Shown here piece by piece: positions 311-18,323 of a stretch of 64,000 nucleotides of DNA. The notes beneath the pieces were generated by a model. It did not search any database. It had not been told where the DNA came from and saw only the letters and a program-made list of their open reading frames with translations. This stretch comes from Oceanospirillum multiglobuliferum (GTDB lineage: Bacteria; Pseudomonadota; Gammaproteobacteria; Pseudomonadales; Halomonadaceae). The position numbers and the translations under genes are program-made. How positions within the stretch are numbered: the stretch's first letter is position 1; each line of letters begins with the position of its first letter. The stretch covers positions 1 through 64,000 of the forward strand of contig NZ_FUXG01000002.1 in NCBI RefSeq assembly GCF_900167095.1, in the 5' to 3' direction.

Positions 311-348
311 TTGCTTATGGTAAAGAAACAATACAGCAGGTGTGAACT

Positions 349-391
349 AAAGCGTTTGCCCGCTGAAAGTGAAAACACTGCAAACAGCTTT
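349..391 (+). promoter_or_regulatory. Leader hairpin upstream of flagellin 1
   Basis: Within the predicted leader, AAAGC (349-353) and TTTGC (355-359) pair with GCAAA (380-384) and GCTTT (387-391). An inner AGTG/CACT stem (368-371 with 376-379) closes an AAAA tetraloop. No T-run follows, so this looks like a stabilising or regulatory 5' UTR fold rather than a terminator. The function is inferred. Confidence 0.45.
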
Positions 392-441
392 GCCATCATG
401 AGATTCGGTAGCGAAGCGGTTGACATAGAAGGAATAGCATC

Positions 442-1831: not shown

Positions 1832-1847
1832 TGGCATGATAAATGCT
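1832..1847 (+). promoter_or_regulatory. Sigma-54 promoter of flagellin gene 2
   Basis: TGGCATG-ATAA-ATGCT has the correct 12-bp GG-to-GC spacing and two mismatches to TGGCACG-N4-TTGCW. Its upstream element is identical to that of flagellin 1. The predicted start is near 1858, leaving a 170-base leader before the ATG at 2029. Confidence 0.8.
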
Positions 1848-1857
1848 TCTATAGTTT

Positions 1858-1961
1858 TAAGAGCAGATCCGGACGGGTTGATAGCTGGAAGCGCAGTGGC
1901 AGGTCTGCTTAACACATGAAGATAGGCAAGCAAAGGATGCAGATGCCAGCTTCCAGTTTTT
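1858..1961 (+). promoter_or_regulatory. Structured leader with terminator-like hairpin ahead of flagellin 2
   Basis: The 5' part of the predicted transcript can form a long hairpin. CTGGAAGC (1885-1892) pairs with GCTTCCAG (1949-1956), GGCA (1898-1901) with TGCC (1944-1947), and TCTGC (1904-1908) with GCAGA (1939-1943). Five T (1957-1961) follow at once, as in an intrinsic terminator. A competing pairing, AGCAGATC (1862-1869) with GGTCTGCT (1902-1909), would break the upper stem. A 15-codon open frame (ATG 1916, TAA 1961-1963) overlaps the 3' arm but has only a weak ribosome site. Possible roles are an attenuator, a ligand-sensing leader, or a roughly 100-nt small RNA. No known riboswitch consensus was recognised. 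Confidence 0.5.
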
Positions 1962-2028
1962 AACTATGTTTGAATTTAATATGCAAAACCGCTCAGTTAT
2001 GGTGGTTTGGATAAGAAGGAATTAAGTC

Positions 2029-3216
2029 ATGGCTTTATTTGTAAATACCAACGTATCAGCACTAAACGGTCAGCGTAATCTTCAAAATGTGACCGATCGG
2101 ATGAATAGCTCATTTGAGAAGTTGTCTTCTGGTAGTCGTATCAATAGCTCTAAAGATGATGCGGCAGGCTTGCAAATTGCAGACCGATTAACCACTCAAA
2201 TTATAGGCTTGCAGCAAGGTACGCGTAATGCCAATGATGGTATATCAATTGCGCAAATTGCAGAGGGTGCACTGAGTGAAGTGACTAATAACCTTCAGCG
2301 TATGCGTCAGCTCGCAGTGCAAGGTGGTAATAGAACCCTTTCAGCTGACGATCGCGCAGCATTGGGTGAAGAGTTTACTAAACTCATGAATGTCAATAAC
2401 GACATTGCAGATCGTACCGCTTTTGGAACGATAAAGATTTTAAATGAAGACTCACCTAAAGCAGGTTTTCAAATTCAATCGGGCGCTCAATCAGGCGAGC
2501 AAGATGTTGTAACAACGGGTAATGCTAAGCTAACCGCTCTATTTGCTAAAGGTGTAGAGGCTGGTGTTGCTGCGGGTACTGTTTCTACAGGGCAAACACT
2601 ATCAACTTTAAGTGGTTCGCTATCAGCTGCGGGCGATTTAGGTAAGATGATTCAGGCTTACGCTGCGATGACGGGTACATCTGATTTAGCCTCTGCGATT
2701 GACATGGTTCTAGGATCGGCTCGTGAGGGTACATTAAGTACTTTGACTAATGTTGAGTCTATTACGATTAATGTAGATGAGTTGACAAAAATATTAACTC
2801 AAACTGTTTCTGGTTCAGGAAACTTCACGTTAGCCTCTGTAGTTGGTAGTGACTTACTAGGCTCTATGGGTATGAATATCAGCAGTGTAACCAGTGCCGG
2901 TTTTACAGACGCACAGATTAATGAGATTCATGCCTTTGCTACAGACACTTTGCTGGATGCAATGACAGGTTTGGTGACCCAGGTTGATAAGCAACGCGCT
3001 AAGTTGGGTGCTGAGCAGAATGGCTTGTCATCAACTATTCGCTCAAATACAACAGCTGTAGTGAATGTGTCAGACTCGCGCGCACGTATTACTGATACAG
3101 ACTTTGCCGCTGAGACTGCAGAGTTGACGCGAAACCAGATTATTCAACAGGCTGCGACTAGTATTCTGTCGCAAGCTAATCAACTGCCTCAAGCGGCTTT
3201 GTCCCTTTTGGGTTAA
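2029..3216 (+). CDS. fliC: Flagellin 2
   Basis: Filament subunit of 395 residues with the same D0/D1-centre-D1/D0 layout and length as flagellins 1 and 3. AAGGAA precedes the ATG. At DNA level the central region and early C-terminal part (about 2510-3045) are almost identical to flagellin 3, while the 5' part differs at many synonymous sites. This suggests recent gene conversion between the two copies. Expression is predicted from a sigma-54 promoter through a 170-base leader with a terminator-like fold, so its control probably differs from that of its neighbours. Confidence 0.97.
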   Translation: MALFVNTNVSALNGQRNLQNVTDRMNSSFEKLSSGSRINSSKDDAAGLQIADRLTTQIIGLQQGTRNANDGISIAQIAEGALSEVTNNLQRMRQLAVQGGNRTLSADDRAALGEEFTKLMNVNNDIADRTAFGTIKILNEDSPKAGFQIQSGAQSGEQDVVTTGNAKLTALFAKGVEAGVAAGTVSTGQTLSTLSGSLSAAGDLGKMIQAYAAMTGTSDLASAIDMVLGSAREGTLSTLTNVESITINVDELTKILTQTVSGSGNFTLASVVGSDLLGSMGMNISSVTSAGFTDAQINEIHAFATDTLLDAMTGLVTQVDKQRAKLGAEQNGLSSTIRSNTTAVVNVSDSRARITDTDFAAETAELTRNQIIQQAATSILSQANQLPQAALSLLG

Positions 3217-3364: not shown

Positions 3365-4552
3365 ATGGCTATGTTTGTAAATACTAACGTTTCTGGTTTA
3401 AATGGTCAGCGCAACCTGCAAAACGTAACTGATCGCATGAACAGTTCTTTCGAGAAGCTGTCTTCAGGTAGTCGTATTAATAGTGCGCGTGATGATTCTG
3501 CGGGCTTACAAATCGCGGATCGCTTGACATCTCAAATCACAGGTTTAAATCAAGCCAATCGTAATGCTAACGACGGTATTTCAATTGCTCAAATCGCTGA
3601 GGGTGCGCTTGGTGAAATTACGACCAATATTCAGCGTATGCGTCAGTTGGCTGTACAAGGTGGTAACCGTACGCTAGCAGCTGATGATCGTGCAGCGTTG
3701 GGTGAAGAGTTTAAAAAGCTTCTGAATGTTAATAATGATATCGCAGATCGTACCGCTTATGGCTCTATCAAGCTGTTAAATAATGATTCTTCTAAAGCGG
3801 GCTTTCAAATTCAGTCTGGTGCAATGTCTGGACAGCAAGATACGGTAACAACGGGTAATGCTAAGTTAACCGCTCTTTTTGCTAAAGGTGTAGAGGCTGG
3901 TGTTGCTGCAGGTACTGTTTCTACAGGACAAGCACTATCAACTTTAAGTGGTTCGCTATCAGCTGCGGGCGATTTAGGTAAGATGATTCAGGCTTACGCT
4001 GCGATGACGGGTACATCTGATTTAACCTCTGCGATTGACATGGTTCTAGGGTCGGCTCGTGAAGGTACATTAAGTACTTTGACTGATGTTGAATCTATTA
4101 CGATTAACGTAGATGAGTTGACAAAAATATTAACTCAAACTGTTTCTGGTTCAGGAAACTTCACGTTAGCCTCTGTGGTTGGTAGTGACTTACTAGGCTC
4201 TATGGGTATGAATATCAGCAGTGTAACCAGTGCCGGTTTCACAGACGCGCAGATTAATGAGATTCATGCTTTTGCTACAGACACTTTGCTGGATGCAATG
4301 ACAGGTCTGGTGACACAAGTTGATAAGCAACGTGCTAAGTTGGGTGCTGAGCAGAATGGCTTGTCATCAACTATTCGCTCGAATGCAGCGTCAATTGTGA
4401 ATGTATCTGACTCTCGTGCACGTATCACTGATACAGATTTTGCAACAGAGACTGCAGAGTTGACTCGTAACCAGATTATTCAGCAGGCAGCGACTACGAT
4501 TTTGTCTCAGGCAAATCAGCTTCCACAAGCAGCACTATCGCTTTTACGCTAG
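3365..4552 (+). CDS. fliC: Flagellin 3
   Basis: Filament subunit of 395 residues. The N-terminus MAMFVNTNVSGLNGQRNL differs slightly from copies 1 and 2, and the D0/D1 region has its own substitutions (NQANRNANDG, NIQRMRQLAVQ). The central domain from about residue 165 is nearly identical to flagellin 2. The protein ends LLR instead of the LLG of flagellins 1 and 2. A GAGGT site precedes the ATG. Its sigma-28 promoter suggests it is a late-class, possibly major, subunit. A terminator follows at 4567-4597. Confidence 0.97.
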   Translation: MAMFVNTNVSGLNGQRNLQNVTDRMNSSFEKLSSGSRINSARDDSAGLQIADRLTSQITGLNQANRNANDGISIAQIAEGALGEITTNIQRMRQLAVQGGNRTLAADDRAALGEEFKKLLNVNNDIADRTAYGSIKLLNNDSSKAGFQIQSGAMSGQQDTVTTGNAKLTALFAKGVEAGVAAGTVSTGQALSTLSGSLSAAGDLGKMIQAYAAMTGTSDLTSAIDMVLGSAREGTLSTLTDVESITINVDELTKILTQTVSGSGNFTLASVVGSDLLGSMGMNISSVTSAGFTDAQINEIHAFATDTLLDAMTGLVTQVDKQRAKLGAEQNGLSSTIRSNAASIVNVSDSRARITDTDFATETAELTRNQIIQQAATTILSQANQLPQAALSLLR

Positions 4553-4566
4553 TCGTTAGCTTTAAT

Positions 4567-4597
4567 AAAAAACCCAAGCTGATGCTTGGGTTTTTTT
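4567..4597. terminator. Bidirectional intrinsic terminator between flagellin 3 and the minus-strand gene
   Basis: An A-rich arm ending ACCCAAGC (to 4579) pairs with GCTTGGGT (from 4584) around a TGAT loop, with A-runs on the left and eight T on the right (4591-4598). It can end transcription from both convergent genes. The T-run overlaps the stop codon of the minus-strand gene. Confidence 0.9.
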
Positions 4598-5373
4598 TAA
4601 ACTATTTTATCGATTAAAAATGTTTTTGTACTTTCAGAATGTTTACGTGCAAAAATTTTAAGTTGCTTATATTTTCTTCTAATTGGTCTAATTTCATCAA
4701 AGTAGTGGTAATAACTGCCATCAGAGTAGCAGCAGTAATAAGTCGGTGCTGCAGGGTAGTTTGTGCCGATGATGGTATCTTCTGTAATACGAGTCGCTTG
4801 AGCTTGCTTTAGCGTTTCTTTTAATTTCCCCGTATTAAGTAAAAGCGAGCTTGGAAATCCAGTTTCGCTACGAATCACGAATTGGTTCTGATCTTGTTCT
4901 ATATTGGCAAGGTCAACAGGTAAAACACACCACGTATTTGCATCCTCGCTAATCATGATTTTTAAATCTCTTCCGTTGAGTATGGCTTCTCGAAGAGCTG
5001 TCATATTGTCTTGCTCAGAATCTTGCCAGACGACTTCATAGTCATGCCTAACGATCCACTGGAATTTGCTGTACCTTCCTCTCATTGATGCCAGTAAGGT
5101 TTGGTTTTTATCTGGTATGCAAATTACCATTGCATCATTATAGCCGTGAGAGTATGAAAATGATTGGAAGCTAGAGTATGCTTTCCCATTGCGGATGGGT
5201 CTGTGCATATTGTAGGTTTGCGCAAAAAAATTGTCTTTTTCGATATAAATAAATGGTAGCTTATAAGTCTCATCGTGAGCGGGTTGGTTGCTTGGCAGTG
5301 ATGGGTCTGGAGTCATTATCCCAGAGATGGAAGCTCCGTTCATTATTGAGTTCAGAATATCAGAGTTGTGCAT
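4597..5373 (-). CDS. Unrecognised 258-residue protein between the flagellin and pse genes
   Basis: I do not recognise this protein. It has no signal peptide or membrane segment and looks cytoplasmic. It is rich in Tyr, Phe and charged residues, with a Cys pair in YYCCYSDGS near residue 216 and a basic C-terminal stretch (RPIRRKYKQLKIFARKH). It is the only gene on the minus strand before 42957, and it sits between the flagellins and pseB, with only 39 bases between its ATG and that of pseB. No strong ribosome site precedes the ATG, so its promoter must overlap pseB. The neighbourhood suggests a link to flagellin modification or filament composition, but that is context only. Confidence 0.7.
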   Translation of the reverse strand: MHNSDILNSIMNGASISGIMTPDPSLPSNQPAHDETYKLPFIYIEKDNFFAQTYNMHRPIRNGKAYSSFQSFSYSHGYNDAMVICIPDKNQTLLASMRGRYSKFQWIVRHDYEVVWQDSEQDNMTALREAILNGRDLKIMISEDANTWCVLPVDLANIEQDQNQFVIRSETGFPSSLLLNTGKLKETLKQAQATRITEDTIIGTNYPAAPTYYCCYSDGSYYHYFDEIRPIRRKYKQLKIFARKHSESTKTFLIDKIV

Positions 5374-7572: not shown

Positions 7573-8250
7573 ATGAAATTTGCAATTATCCCTGCTAGAG
7601 GTGGAAGCAAGCGTATACCACGTAAGAATATTAAGCCTTTCTTTGGACAGCCAATGATTGCATGGTCCATAAAAGCGGCTATCTCAAGTGGTTGCTTTGA
7701 CAGGGTGATCGTTTCTACAGACGATAGTGAGATTGCACAAATAGCGAGAGATTATGGTGCAGAAACGCCTTTTGTGCGTCCAGTTGATTTGTCTGATGAT
7801 TATACGGCTTCTACAGAAGTTGTTCGACACGCTGTTGAGTGGCTCTTTATAAACGGTTTTGATGTAGAGGCTGCTTGCTGTATATATGCTACAGCACCAT
7901 TTATAACTCCAGAGCTGATCCAGCAGTCATATGTGTCCATGATTAGCCAGAAAAAAAGTTATGCATTTACAGTAGTGAGCTATGATTACCCTGTGCAAAG
8001 AGCCATTACTTTGGATGAAAATGGCAATATTGAAATGCTATATCCTGAATACAGAGACACGCGCTCCCAAGATCTGAAAGAGGCTTGGCACGATGCAGGG
8101 CAGTTGTACTGGGGGCTTGGTGAGGCTTGGATGGAGAGAAGACCTATTTTTTCTCAATATTCTGCGCCTGTTGTGATTCCTAGGTATCTAGCACAAGATA
8201 TTGATACTGAAGAGGACTGGAGGCAAGCAGAGAGATTGTATCAGCTATGA
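7573..8250 (+). CDS. pseF: Pseudaminic acid cytidylyltransferase, PseF
   Basis: Activates the nonulosonic acid as its CMP-sugar, the last cytosolic step before transfer to flagellin. The 225 residues contain the CMP-sugar synthetase signature IIPARGGSKRIPRKNIK (about 4-20), STDDSEIA and the C-terminal DIDTEEDW motif. An AGGTGATATAGGT stretch precedes the ATG, 7 bases after pseC. PseF rather than NeuA is favoured by the adjacent pseB and pseC. It ends the first glycosylation block, and a FliA promoter for flaG follows. Confidence 0.9.
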   Translation: MKFAIIPARGGSKRIPRKNIKPFFGQPMIAWSIKAAISSGCFDRVIVSTDDSEIAQIARDYGAETPFVRPVDLSDDYTASTEVVRHAVEWLFINGFDVEAACCIYATAPFITPELIQQSYVSMISQKKSYAFTVVSYDYPVQRAITLDENGNIEMLYPEYRDTRSQDLKEAWHDAGQLYWGLGEAWMERRPIFSQYSAPVVIPRYLAQDIDTEEDWRQAERLYQL

Positions 8251-10701: not shown

Positions 10702-12846
10702 ATGCCTGATATTGAGTATAGTCAAGCTGATCTTATTTCAGCTTTTTTAGAAAAAAGACTGTCAGATAATTTAGATGCTTTTAAGAAGTATTCTCCAGAT
10801 ATATATAGTGAGTTTTCTAATTATAAGGAGAAAAGATTTTTTGTAATATATGATGCTGATGGAAATATAAATGTTTTAGACCGAGAAAGTGGAAGGTTGC
10901 TTTATGGAAGTAACCCAGTGGCTGAAACTATTAATAATTATGAAGAGTATAAGAAATCTCCTTTACATAAGCCATTTTTTACTGTCTTTAAAGATAGTGC
11001 AGTTTGTAAAACAAATCCAGTTCATACATCCTTGATGAGAAGTCTAGGTGATGTTCAGGTTTCACTTATTCGTAAGTCTATGGAAGATGGCATATCATAT
11101 CTGTCAAAGTCGGATGAGTCGAATCAATCTTTTTCCGATGTGTCTTATGGTGTTTTACCCGAAAAAATTGGTAGGCTATTTTGGTTTTCTACAGGGCTTG
11201 GCTTTGACCTAGAGAAAATGTATAAAGAAAATAGAGTGTCTAATCTTTATTTGATAGAGCCTAATAAAGATATTTTTTTCGCTAGTATGCAGATGATAGA
11301 TTGGGCTTATATTTTAGATAAAATGAACAAGTTAGGCTTATCTATATATATAGGTTTGTCTGATGATGTAGATGAGCTTATAGATGACTTAACTATAGAA
11401 GTTTATAAAGGTGGTCGTCATAGAGTTGCAGGTTCTTTTATATATTCAGCCTTTTATTTAGATGGGTATGATAAGATTTTTGAAAAGGTAAAAAATCAAA
11501 TAGATTTGAAGTTCTTCTCTGGGTATGGGTTTTATGATGATGCTAGATTGAGCGTTGCGCATACAGTTGGTAATTTCAAAAATGGTGTTCCTTGCTTAAG
11601 AAGCGATGTCTCAAAAATTAAAGATTTTGGTCAGAGAGATTGGCCTGTATTTGTTATAGGAAATGGGCCGTCTTTAGATTCTGATATAGAGTTTATCAAA
11701 AATCATTCATCTGATGTGATCATTGTTAGCTGTGGATCTGCTTTGTCAACGTTATATAAAAATCAGATAAAGCCTAATATTCATGTTGAGTTAGAAAGAA
11801 CTGCTGATGTTGTAACCTTTATAAAATCAAATTATGATGACAGTGAAGATTTTTCTATATACCTGAAAGATGTCTTTTTTATCGGTGCTTCTCAAGTGCA
11901 TCCTGATGCGTTCTCTTTGTTTGACAGTAAAGGTCAAATGCTGAAGGATGTTGAAGCAGGTTCTTTGATGATGCACAAAATTTTTGGTGCAGAGGGGGTG
12001 TCGCTAATTGGGCGCATTGCACCTAGTTGTGTACATATAGGATTTACATCTGCGATATTACTTGGTTTTAGAAATATTTTCTTTTTCGGTGTTGATATGG
12101 GGTATGTTGATCGTGAGTATCATCACTCTAAATCAAGTCTGTATGAGAAAATGAATGATGAAAGTAAAAAAACTTGGACTCCAAAAGCTGCAGGAGAAAT
12201 TGAGTTTGATTCAAACTTTGGTGAGGGACAAGTTTATTCTTCAGGCTACTTGCCTATGTTTAAGAATGAGTTAGAAACTATAATTATATCTTGGAAAAAT
12301 ACTTTTCCAGATAGTATTAGCGTGTTGAATTGTAGTGATGGCGCGAAAATTGAGGGTGCTGACCCTATAAGATCATCTGATATTATATTCTCTGATTTTG
12401 GTAAGGTGGATGCTCAGGTTTTAAGTAAGATATTAAATTCTTATTTCTCATTTATTCCTGAAGACATTGATGCTGTTTCATCTGAGCTTAATCGCTGTTT
12501 TGATAAGATAGATGAAATGGTTGTTTGGTTAAAGTCTAAGATTTTTCATGCGCATACCATAGAAGATGCAGAGAAAATAATTAAAAATATTTCCTATGAT
12601 TTTCACAGTGATGACTTTGATATTTCAAAGGATGATTATTGGCTTTATGCTATTTTTGATGGCACTCTTCTTTATTCTATTAGTGCTATAAATAGTATTC
12701 TTTACTTTCCTGTAGGAGAGTCTTATAAGGTGGAAAGTTTTAATGATGCGATGAAGGAGTTTGATTTGTTTTTAGATAACTTGAAGTCAGATTTTAGACA
12801 TAACTGTTTAAAAACAGATAATGAAGAAAACTATAATTACTTTTAA
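10702..12846 (+). CDS. Motility-associated factor, Maf/DUF115-type flagellin glycosylation protein
   Basis: A 714-residue cytoplasmic protein of the motility accessory factor family, thought to transfer nonulosonic acids onto flagellin. The central DUF115 domain (about 295-500) shows FVIGNGPSLDSDIEFI (about 317-332), IVSCGSALSTLY, and the FFFGVDMGYVDREYHHSK stretch typical of the family. Flanking helical regions are variable. The gene is strikingly AT-rich: for example only 17 of 60 bases are G/C in 10741-10800, against 34 of 60 in 53041-53100 (smc). This suggests horizontal acquisition. It heads the second glycosylation block. GAGG precedes the ATG. Confidence 0.85.
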   Translation: MPDIEYSQADLISAFLEKRLSDNLDAFKKYSPDIYSEFSNYKEKRFFVIYDADGNINVLDRESGRLLYGSNPVAETINNYEEYKKSPLHKPFFTVFKDSAVCKTNPVHTSLMRSLGDVQVSLIRKSMEDGISYLSKSDESNQSFSDVSYGVLPEKIGRLFWFSTGLGFDLEKMYKENRVSNLYLIEPNKDIFFASMQMIDWAYILDKMNKLGLSIYIGLSDDVDELIDDLTIEVYKGGRHRVAGSFIYSAFYLDGYDKIFEKVKNQIDLKFFSGYGFYDDARLSVAHTVGNFKNGVPCLRSDVSKIKDFGQRDWPVFVIGNGPSLDSDIEFIKNHSSDVIIVSCGSALSTLYKNQIKPNIHVELERTADVVTFIKSNYDDSEDFSIYLKDVFFIGASQVHPDAFSLFDSKGQMLKDVEAGSLMMHKIFGAEGVSLIGRIAPSCVHIGFTSAILLGFRNIFFFGVDMGYVDREYHHSKSSLYEKMNDESKKTWTPKAAGEIEFDSNFGEGQVYSSGYLPMFKNELETIIISWKNTFPDSISVLNCSDGAKIEGADPIRSSDIIFSDFGKVDAQVLSKILNSYFSFIPEDIDAVSSELNRCFDKIDEMVVWLKSKIFHAHTIEDAEKIIKNISYDFHSDDFDISKDDYWLYAIFDGTLLYSISAINSILYFPVGESYKVESFNDAMKEFDLFLDNLKSDFRHNCLKTDNEENYNYF

Positions 12847-15734: not shown

Positions 15735-16871
15735 ATGAGTGGATCAGCCCAAGAGTTACAGCTTGCGTTTCAGGAGTTCACAGCGCTATCTGAGCAGCTT
15801 ACTTCTTCGTACAATGAATTGCAGAGTAAAATTGTCCGTCTGACTGATGAGTTGGAGGAGGCGAAGCGGCAGCGCGCTGAACAGCTTGAGCAAAAACAAC
15901 AGGTGGCGGAGAAGTTAGAGCATCTGCTTTTTTTATTGCCTGCAGGTGTGGTGGTTATTGATGGTGCCGGTGTTGTAGCCAGTGCCAACCCAGCTGCTGA
16001 AATGTTGTTGGGTGCACCTCTGGTTGGGTCCGCATGGGTTGCTGTTATTGAGCGCTGTTTCGACCCTAAGCAAAATGATGGCTATGAGATATCTCTAAAA
16101 GATGGTCGTTTGGTTTCCATTGCGACAAGATCTTTAGAGCAAGAGCCAGGGCAAATGGTTGTGATAACCGATATGACAGAGACTCGACGCCTACAAGAGC
16201 AGGTCAGTCGCAGTGAGCGTTTAACAGAAATGGGGCGGATGGTGGCTTCTCTTGCGCATCAAATTCGAACTCCGCTGTCTGCCGCCATGCTGTATGCAGG
16301 GCATCTAGAAAGTGAAAGTTTATCGGAGGCTAATCGCATAAAGTTTGCGTCTAAATTACAGGGGCGCTTGCGAAATTTAGAGCAGCAAATTGGCGATATG
16401 CTGCAATTTGCACGTGGTGGCAGTACCGTTGCTGAAAAATTTGATCTACCAAGCTTTTATACTGTTTTGAAAAATGCTGTAGAACCTATGCTAAGTGGTC
16501 TTGATGTGCATTGTTCTTGGCAGTTGAATGTAACCGATGCCCTTTTGCTCGGTCATTCAGAAGCTTTGACTGGGGCTGTGGTAAATTTAGTCAATAATGC
16601 TATTCAAGCAGGTGCAAAAGAAATCCAGCTGTCTGCCGATAAGGATTTACATGATCTATTGTTGGTAGTTTCTGATGACGGGCCAGGTATTCCGGAGGAG
16701 CTAAGAACTAAGGTCTTGGAGCCATTTTACACAACAAAAACTCAAGGTACTGGTTTAGGCTTGGCCATAGTACAGTCAGTTGTTAATGCTCATAAAGGGG
16801 TGTTGAGTGTAGAATCAACGGATGGACATGGTAGTCAGTTTATTATTAGGTTACCGCTGGTTTCTTCTTAG
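15735..16871 (+). CDS. fleS: Flagellar sensor histidine kinase FleS/FlrB
   Basis: Cytosolic kinase of 378 residues that phosphorylates FleR to switch on middle flagellar genes. There is an N-terminal coiled coil (about 15-65), a PAS-like domain (about 66-150), the phospho-acceptor His175 in SLAHQIRTPLS, and an HATPase domain with VNNAIQAG, DDGPGIP and GTGLGLAIV boxes. No transmembrane helix is present, as usual for FleS/FlrB, which are thought to sense flagellar assembly. It starts 6 bases after fliT and pairs with fleR 12 bases downstream. The master activator fleQ, often found just before it, is absent here. Confidence 0.94.
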   Translation: MSGSAQELQLAFQEFTALSEQLTSSYNELQSKIVRLTDELEEAKRQRAEQLEQKQQVAEKLEHLLFLLPAGVVVIDGAGVVASANPAAEMLLGAPLVGSAWVAVIERCFDPKQNDGYEISLKDGRLVSIATRSLEQEPGQMVVITDMTETRRLQEQVSRSERLTEMGRMVASLAHQIRTPLSAAMLYAGHLESESLSEANRIKFASKLQGRLRNLEQQIGDMLQFARGGSTVAEKFDLPSFYTVLKNAVEPMLSGLDVHCSWQLNVTDALLLGHSEALTGAVVNLVNNAIQAGAKEIQLSADKDLHDLLLVVSDDGPGIPEELRTKVLEPFYTTKTQGTGLGLAIVQSVVNAHKGVLSVESTDGHGSQFIIRLPLVSS

Positions 16872-16883
16872 GGTTAATTTGTT

Positions 16884-18323
16884 ATGTCGAACGAGAAAAT
16901 ATTAGTTGTTGAAGATGATGTTGATTTGCGGGAGGCGTTGGTAGATACCCTTGAGCTAGCAGGCTATGAGTGTGTTGATGCTGACTCCGGTGAGTCTGCA
17001 ATTGTGGCATTATCTAAATCGACTTTTAATCTCGTTATCTCAGATGTCAATATGCCTGGTATTGATGGTCATGAGCTGTTACGACATGTAGTCTCTAGAT
17101 ATAGCGGCCTGCCCATGTTGCTGGTTACGGCCTATGGCAGCATCGGTAATGCTGTCGATGCCATGCGTGAAGGGGCTGTGGACTATCTGGTAAAGCCCTT
17201 TGAACCTAAAACTTTGGTTGAGTTGGTAGAGAAGTATGTAAAGGGGCGCGTAGGGAAAGCTTCAGGTATTACACAGCCAATTATGGAGAGCGAAAAAAGT
17301 AGGCAGGCATTCCATTTGGCTAAGCGTGTTGCGGTTACAGATTCAACTGTACTGATTGCAGGCGAAAGTGGTTCTGGTAAAGAAGTAATAGCAAACTATA
17401 TCCATCAAAATTCTAGTCGCGCTAGTAAGCCTTTTATTGCCATTAACTGTGCGGCTATCCCTGAAACCATGTTGGAAGCCACTCTGTTTGGGCATGAAAA
17501 AGGCGCCTTTACTGGGGCACATGCAAGTGCGCCGGGTAAGTTTGAACAAGCCAATGGTGGGACACTGCTGTTGGATGAAATATCAGAGATGGCACTGGAA
17601 TTGCAGGCTAAATTACTCAGGGTATTGCAGGAGCAAGAGGTTGAACGAGTTGGTGGGCGTAAAACGATTAAGCTTGATGTTCGAGTGATTGCTACAACGA
17701 ACCGCAATATGCAAGAGTACATTTCTCAAGGTCGGTTCCGTGAGGACTTGTTTTATCGCCTTAATGTTTTCCCTATTACGCTTTCTCCGTTGCGAGAGCG
17801 CAAGGCTGATATAATACCTCTGGCTGAAATGTTATTTGCAAAGCATGCTAGTAAGATGAATCGTGGCGATGTTGTTCTATCTGAGTCGGCTAAAGCAGAG
17901 TTATCTAGCTATCACTGGCCTGGTAATGTGAGAGAGTTGGAGAACGTTGTTCAGCGTGCTCTGGTCTTGCAGATGGGTAATGCCGTTGAAGCGGAAGATC
18001 TTTGCATAGAAGTTGTATCAATGAATGATCGAAGCGCTCATTCGTCAAGTGAAAGAGAGTTGCAGGGGCCTGTAGCTGTAGAGGCTTCGGTTGTTAGTAG
18101 TGTGACTCTGCCAGACTCGGTGCGCTTGTCGGAGTCTGGTCGTTTAGGCGATGACTTGCAGATTAAAGAGTTTGAAATGATCTTGGCTGTCTTGAAAGAG
18201 TCCCATGGTCGAAAGAATAAAGCAGCTGATCGCCTTGGTATTAGCCCAAGAACCTTGCGTTATAAGCTGGCAAAAATGCGAGAGCATGGTATAGATGTAG
18301 AGAAAGTGGTTGATCTGATGTAA
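16884..18323 (+). CDS. fleR: Sigma-54-dependent response regulator FleR/FlrC
   Basis: Activator of 479 residues for RpoN-dependent flagellar promoters. There is a receiver domain with phospho-acceptor Asp54 (VISDVNMPG), an AAA+ domain with Walker A GESGSGKE (160-167) and the sigma-54 contact loop GAFTGA (207-212), and a C-terminal Fis-type helix-turn-helix (KNKAADRLGISPRTLRYKL). Likely targets in this window are the sigma-54 promoters of flagellins 1 and 2 and possibly fliK. It sits directly upstream of the fliE operon. Confidence 0.95.
   Translation: MSNEKILVVEDDVDLREALVDTLELAGYECVDADSGESAIVALSKSTFNLVISDVNMPGIDGHELLRHVVSRYSGLPMLLVTAYGSIGNAVDAMREGAVDYLVKPFEPKTLVELVEKYVKGRVGKASGITQPIMESEKSRQAFHLAKRVAVTDSTVLIAGESGSGKEVIANYIHQNSSRASKPFIAINCAAIPETMLEATLFGHEKGAFTGAHASAPGKFEQANGGTLLLDEISEMALELQAKLLRVLQEQEVERVGGRKTIKLDVRVIATTNRNMQEYISQGRFREDLFYRLNVFPITLSPLRERKADIIPLAEMLFAKHASKMNRGDVVLSESAKAELSSYHWPGNVRELENVVQRALVLQMGNAVEAEDLCIEVVSMNDRSAHSSSERELQGPVAVEASVVSSVTLPDSVRLSESGRLGDDLQIKEFEMILAVLKESHGRKNKAADRLGISPRTLRYKLAKMREHGIDVEKVVDLM

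Follow-up and report, generated by a model that had tools for sequence, protein, structure and literature searches.

A conserved folded RNA leader upstream of a sigma-54 flagellin gene in Oceanospirillum multiglobuliferum

The leader of a sigma-54 flagellin gene of Oceanospirillum multiglobuliferum is a conserved folded RNA element. It occupies positions 1858–2028 of the window, a stretch of 64,000 nucleotides (nt) at the start of contig NZ_FUXG01000002.1, taken from a genome of 3.5 Mb in 46 contigs, and it precedes flagellin 2, the middle one of three tandem flagellin genes (442–1629, 2029–3216, and 3365–4552). An earlier note, made from the letters of the window, had proposed a structured leader at this place, and that proposal stands, as the fold is conserved in three species and beats all column shuffles. 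That the leader acts in cis on the sigma-54 flagellin mRNA, access to the 5′ end affecting mRNA stability or translation, is put forward tentatively, with slightly more doubt than confidence.

The fold was recognized by comparison within the genus Oceanospirillum. A DNA search of 38 genomes returned one clear orthologous leader, that of O. sediminis D5 (72% identity, E 9.4e-14), and a second one, from O. beijerinckii DSM 7166, was found by reading the regions upstream of flagellin genes. Together with the leader of the window species they form a three-leader alignment with a mean column identity of 80% (76% when the promoter is included). Common to all three are TAAGAGCAGAT at the 5′ end, TCTGC in helix A, GAAGC and GCTTC in helix B, and GCAAAACCGCTC with GTGGTTTG in hairpin C (Table 1). 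The fold of a single leader is good, not extreme (-49.2 kcal/mol, z -2.86; 2/200 dinucleotide shuffles as good). The consensus fold has an energy of -33.0 against a column-shuffle mean of -13.4 and was equaled by no shuffle in two series (z -6.31, 0/200; z -6.35, 0/500), nor was it when the alignment was cut before hairpin C (z -7.29, 0/500). The reverse strand also scores, because the long arms are complementary, yet more weakly (z -5.23, 0/500), and the difference between the strands amounts to -10.3 kcal/mol vs. -4.9 (sd 3.1) in shuffles.

The changes between the leaders are those of a paired structure. Among the 16 positions of helix B, three are changed on both sides and three on one side, two differ by unpaired cells only and eight are invariant, while in helix E one pair is changed on both sides. 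Hairpin C is invariant in the three leaders and is neutral in this respect, speaking neither for nor against structure. Sliding the partner columns by 1–3 lowers the proportion of paired cells from 97% to 25–57%. Departures from Watson-Crick pairing within the helices are G-U in 15 cells, A-C in one and other mismatches in three, a count that refers to helices chosen on this strand and to which an invariant G-U in hairpin C contributes three cells.

Helix A, which pairs the 5′ end of the RNA with bases inside the loop of B, has suggestive support. Seven of its eight pairs hold in 3/3 leaders, two of them through G-U changes, and the outermost pair is broken in O. beijerinckii. In a test that randomized all columns outside B and C, 9/2000 shuffles produced a nine-column crossing helix broken no more than once, the nine-column criterion having been chosen after the data were seen. 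Helices A and B share no base, and A crosses B in a manner compatible with a pseudoknot; the overlap of A is limited to the unconserved upper stem D and to the lower extension E. Because A and E overlap at 1866–1869, the choice lies between A with B (a pseudoknot) and E with B. In minimum-energy folds of nascent RNA, the 5′ fold is helix A at 3/4 lengths up to 92 nt in the window species, and at 4/5 and 5/5 lengths up to 100 nt in O. sediminis and O. beijerinckii, respectively; B replaces A at 100–108 nt and E joins by 108–120 nt. A diverged, paralogous leader of O. sediminis, that of its preceding flagellin gene, shows the same order (A at 58–95 nt, E/B at 110 nt). Helix A leaves 3–4 free nucleotides at the 5′ end and E/B leaves 7–8.

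The close form of the leader is narrowly distributed. A model built from the three leaders found it in 3/6 genomes of the genus and nothing convincing outside it in samples drawn from the family (201 genomes), the order (390), and the class (369), which overlap one another and were searched with stricter filters that can lose weak matches. Seven weak matches outside the genus had no flagellin in either direction and were taken as chance. Among 293 sampled genomes of the order, which included no further Oceanospirillum genome with a match, the flagellin protein itself had no match below E 1e-75 outside the genome of the window species. A mobile repeat or multi-copy element was discarded as an explanation, since the leader occurs once in the genome of the window species (best match elsewhere E 0.73). 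Searched without filters, the model also matched the leader of the preceding flagellin gene in O. sediminis (30.6 bits, E 3.6e-05 in 28.8 kb) and, below significance, that in O. beijerinckii (13.8 bits, E 0.13); both matches run from the predicted start to the ATG. The five leaders of both forms aligned together give z -3.72 (1/200 shuffles), and the two preceding-flagellin leaders alone z -2.30 (7/200). The leader thus appears to be an old element that has changed fast and was duplicated together with the sigma-54 flagellin genes it accompanies. The leaders of the other three genomes of the genus (G001, G004, G005) fold differently (aligned with one another they give z -1.86, 11/200), and the z scores of the alignments do not support a single fold shared among the nine sigma-54 leaders of the genus.

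Several results weigh against this account of the leader. The structure is solid within one genus; it depends on three close sequences and one clear diverged leader, all from that genus. A per-pair shuffle control was reached by 42/500 shuffles for A, B, and C together and by 9/500 for E, B, and C, a weak test with little power on three sequences. For helix A, crossing helices of at least eight columns occur in 88/2000 shuffles and unbroken ones of at least seven in 100/2000; the helix is missing from the nascent folds at 85 nt in two leaders, and a nested fold containing it is less stable than B/E by 12.1, 3.8, and 4.4 kcal/mol. A displaced 5′ helix is also common in shuffled leaders (64–75 of 150, with a crude shuffle routine). 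Co-transcriptional displacement was for this reason rejected as a signal in itself, being not significant, and only the sameness of helix A among the leaders, not its displacement, speaks for it. The flagellin 1 leader of the window was not listed by the unfiltered model and, aligned with the leaders of two relatives, gives z -0.29 (67/200 shuffles as good). Part of the conservation of the leader may, moreover, serve DNA binding.

The earlier note had gone further and read 1885–1961 as an intrinsic terminator controlled by helix A as an antiterminator, which would give a short attenuated RNA. The bases on which this reading was built are present: CTGGAAGC (1885–1892) is complementary to GCTTCCAG (1949–1956), five T follow at 1957–1961, AGCAGATC can pair with GGTCTGCT at 1902–1909, and an ATG frame of 15 codons spans 1916–1963 (MKIGKQRMQMPASSF). 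In the window species alone, a GC-rich stem is thus followed by five T, and helix A overlaps its upper part. The stem, however, does not end at the T-run but continues through it (1877–1884 with 1957–1964, one U-U mismatch), so that the T's lie within the 3′ arm of a hairpin with a loop of 56 nt. The T-run is absent at the aligned position in 2/2 relatives, where O. sediminis and O. beijerinckii have GAAAGT and G-AAGT, and the lower half of helix B is kept there with other bases (e.g., A-U here, C-G there); had this been a true terminator tail, its T-run would be preserved. Of the competition between helices, the conservation of A and its overlap with D and E hold, but A does not exclude the proposed hairpin, as it has no base in common with B, and the upper stem D is poorly kept (73.3% of its cells are paired in the three-leader alignment vs. 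95.8% for A and 95.7% for B). Both A and B are kept in the relatives, and in this respect the note is not contradicted; its 15-codon frame is not conserved, and a leader peptide was accordingly set aside. A terminator scan listed nothing at 1885–1961, which says little as the scan admits loops of 3–8 only. Because the T-run is unconserved and inside B, and the upper stem is complete in the window species only, the leader, judged from its sequence, is not a conserved attenuator, and control by a terminator is very improbable, though transcription might still end there in the window species by itself. A reading of a single genome can take a T-rich stem for a terminator. The view that no known riboswitch fits the leader was borne out: no listed match to a family of Rfam 15 overlaps it in the window (E up to 5) or in three related loci (E up to 1).

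Table 1. Positions of the leader elements and flanking features of flagellin 2 in the window.
Feature	Position	Strand	Remark
Sigma-54 (RpoN) promoter of flagellin 2, TGGCATGATAAATGC	1832..1846	+	From promoter reading across the flagellins of the genus
Helix A, 5′ arm, AGCAGATC	1862..1869	+	4 nt from the predicted RNA 5′ end; comparative and nascent folds
Helix A, 3′ arm, GGTCTGCT	1902..1909	+	Partner of 1862–1869 in 3/3 leaders, one terminal pair broken in one
Helix E, 5′ arm	1866..1873 (1866–1868, 1870–1873)	+	Lower extension of B; overlaps A
Helix E, 3′ arm	1969..1976 (1969–1972, 1974–1976)	+	95.2% of cells paired
Helix B, 5′ arm	1877..1892	+	Main stem, 16 positions; 95.7% of cells paired
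Helix B, 3′ arm	1949..1964	+	Contains the five T at 1957–1961; T-run inside stem, unconserved
Upper stem D	1897..1948 (1897–1901/1944–1948, 1904–1908/1939–1943)	+	Complete in the window species only
Hairpin C	1986..2008 (1986–1992/2002–2008)	+	Paired bases identical in 3/3 leaders
Shine-Dalgarno AAGGA of flagellin 2	2016..2020	+	Mostly unpaired
Flagellin 2 coding sequence	2029..3216	+	Flagellin_N and Flagellin_C

The strongest rival to a function as RNA places the function in the DNA. In this alternative an FlrC-like sigma-54 activator would bind enhancer sites in the leader, past the transcription start, and the RNA pairing would be partly a by-product of inverted repeats. It is rather unlikely as the explanation of the leader, and it may coexist with an RNA element. 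FlrC sites of Vibrio cholerae typically lie downstream of the start site, and the flaA locus of that organism likewise has a sigma-54 flagellin beside sigma-28 flagellins and an activator pair encoded nearby (PMC6504787). The window encodes a sigma-54 activator with a receiver domain (16884–18323) and an adjoining histidine kinase (15735–16871). The blocks TAAGAGCAGAT and GCAAAACCGCTC keep their sequence among the leaders, and the leader contains near matches to AAGCAGATC in either orientation (1861, plus; 1910, minus). With one mismatch allowed, however, the 9-base block occurs 34 times in the window, and two of these sites fall within the leader. The arms of helix B are 56 nt apart and change by compensation instead of keeping a fixed sequence, and the mismatches are mainly G-U, as RNA would show, with the reservation that the helices were chosen on this strand. 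Whereas the V. cholerae region acts as DNA (PMC6504787), the changes seen here resemble those of an RNA fold.

As regards the function of a folded RNA, the ribosome-binding site is not expected to be occluded, because the Shine-Dalgarno sequence is mostly unpaired in the three leaders (mean unpaired probability 0.75 in the window species, 0.82 and 0.87 in the relatives). As the ribosome-binding site is open and the alternative folds alter the 5′ end, control of mRNA lifetime by way of 5′-end access is favored. During transcription, the 5′ end would close first into helix A, leaving about 3–4 free nucleotides; once transcription has passed the 3′ arm of B, this long hairpin would form and either keep A in a pseudoknot or extend into E and displace A. 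Hairpin C would then stand just upstream of the open ribosome-binding site. This would probably determine how long an abundant mRNA lasts and how much it is translated, through the access of 5′-end-dependent decay enzymes and perhaps with a bound protein or small RNA as a partner of the leader. Such an effect on the fate of the mRNA is inferred from what is generally known of 5′-end-dependent decay. The 5′ untranslated region (UTR) of Escherichia coli ompA offers a parallel, having a structured 5′ end with few free 5′ nucleotides; its stabilizing effect has been measured, while here a stabilizing effect is putative. A more specific proposal, that the sigma-54 flagellins of Oceanospirillum carry a new class of leader which refolds from A to B/E or forms an A/B pseudoknot, with the lifetime of the mRNA set by a bound factor, is speculative and on balance unlikely.

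Structured flagellin leaders are already known in other groups. The 5′ UTR of flagellin mRNA in Caulobacter crescentus is bound by FlbT, a case of post-transcriptional flagellin control through the 5′ UTR like the one considered here, and the hag leader of Bacillus is bound by CsrA. A CsrA-bound leader of the type of Bacillus hag or Campylobacter jejuni flaA is improbable for flagellin 2. CsrA homologs are encoded in the genome, and a GGA lies at most 14 nt from the start codon in 9/9 of the sigma-54 leaders read, including 3/3 of the aligned ones; a conserved upstream GGA in a loop, which would complement the one at the ribosome-binding site, is nevertheless missing, as GGA beyond -20 occurs three times here, three times in O. 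sediminis and not at all in O. beijerinckii. FliW was not found in the genome (98.75% complete), so that the CsrA-FliW-flagellin system is represented by CsrA and flagellin. The flaA leader of C. jejuni is a CsrA-bound structured 5′ UTR of 45 nt with compensatory changes, acting on the mRNA as the leader described here may do, and it has two GGA-loop hairpins, one of its motifs covering the ribosome-binding site, and is primarily dependent on sigma-28 (PMC4894983). The window leader differs in its length of 171 nt, its sigma-54 promoter, the lack of a conserved upstream GGA, its open ribosome-binding site and the failure to find FliW. It is equally improbable that the leader is cut from the mRNA (e.g., by RNase III within helix B) and acts as a small RNA: B and E together make a long duplex, and small RNAs derived from flagellar UTRs, MotR and FliX, exist in E. 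coli (PMC10578931), yet the strongly conserved stretch reaches the ribosome-binding site, which suggests action on the mRNA itself. No structured flagellin leader was found described for Oceanospirillum in the literature searched, the coverage of which leaves out most subscription journals.

The flagellin genes of the window have promoters of two kinds. Those of flagellins 1 and 2 are sigma-54-like, with leaders of ~121 and ~171 nt, respectively, and that of flagellin 3 is sigma-28-like (10/12 positions), with a leader of ~65 nt. The RNA start of flagellin 2 is predicted at ~1858, because TAA(G/A) lies exactly 11 nt past the -12 element in 8/9 sigma-54 flagellin leaders of the genus, as judged by eye; two of these leaders also contain a TAA closer to the promoter. 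In six genomes of the genus, 26 flagellin upstream regions were read out of 36 flagellin matches, the other 10 being partial or second hits, a gene matched incompletely (G004:C1:222453), and single matches in several longer flagellin-like frames. A sigma-54 promoter is present in 9/26, none of which scores above 8/12 for sigma-28, and the remaining 17 score at least 9/12 for sigma-28 in 15 cases and at least 10/12 in nine. A survey of 18 loci from other genera, with nine minus-strand loci excluded from the count, gave a sigma-28-like promoter (11–12 of 12 positions) at 8/9 plus-strand loci.

Other flagellin loci of the genus show features of their own. The leader of flagellin 1 in the window (311–441) contains competing helices (ATGGTAAAG/CTTTGCCAT, GTTTGC/GCAAAC, and GCTTTGC/GCGAAGC), some of them interleaved. 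In the first flagellin leaders of the other three genomes, GUCC can pair with a conserved GGGAC near the start codon, and the GGAC there is mostly paired (unpaired probability 0.36, 0.14, and 0.14 in G4_219235, G1_771195, and G5_821983). G001 has eight tandem flagellins (G001:C109:760397-771195), several with identical or nearly identical upstream regions, which indicates recent duplication. In G005, a perfect six-base tandem repeat (7.2 copies; locus positions 7713–7755) separates two tandem flagellins, preceding the start codon of one of them, and could vary in length and thereby alter expression. Upstream of a flagellin of that genome (5′ end at G005:C25:815722) there is a stretch which we take to resemble the 3′ end of a group II intron; Rfam at gathering thresholds gave no group II intron at this place. 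In the window itself, a minus-strand protein of 258 residues without a Pfam match at 1e-5 is encoded directly after the flagellins (4597–5373). A Maf-type flagellin glycosyltransferase (Maf_flag10_N) is encoded at 10702–12846 near genes that presumably resemble those of nonulosonic acid synthesis, and the flagellins of the window are probably glycosylated.

If the fold of the flagellin 2 leader matters to the cell, it adds a post-transcriptional layer to the control of the sigma-54 flagellins, a class that would, judging from Vibrio, be produced earlier than the sigma-28 flagellins. The leader would then provide a small system in which to study how bacteria with several flagellins ration an abundant export protein.
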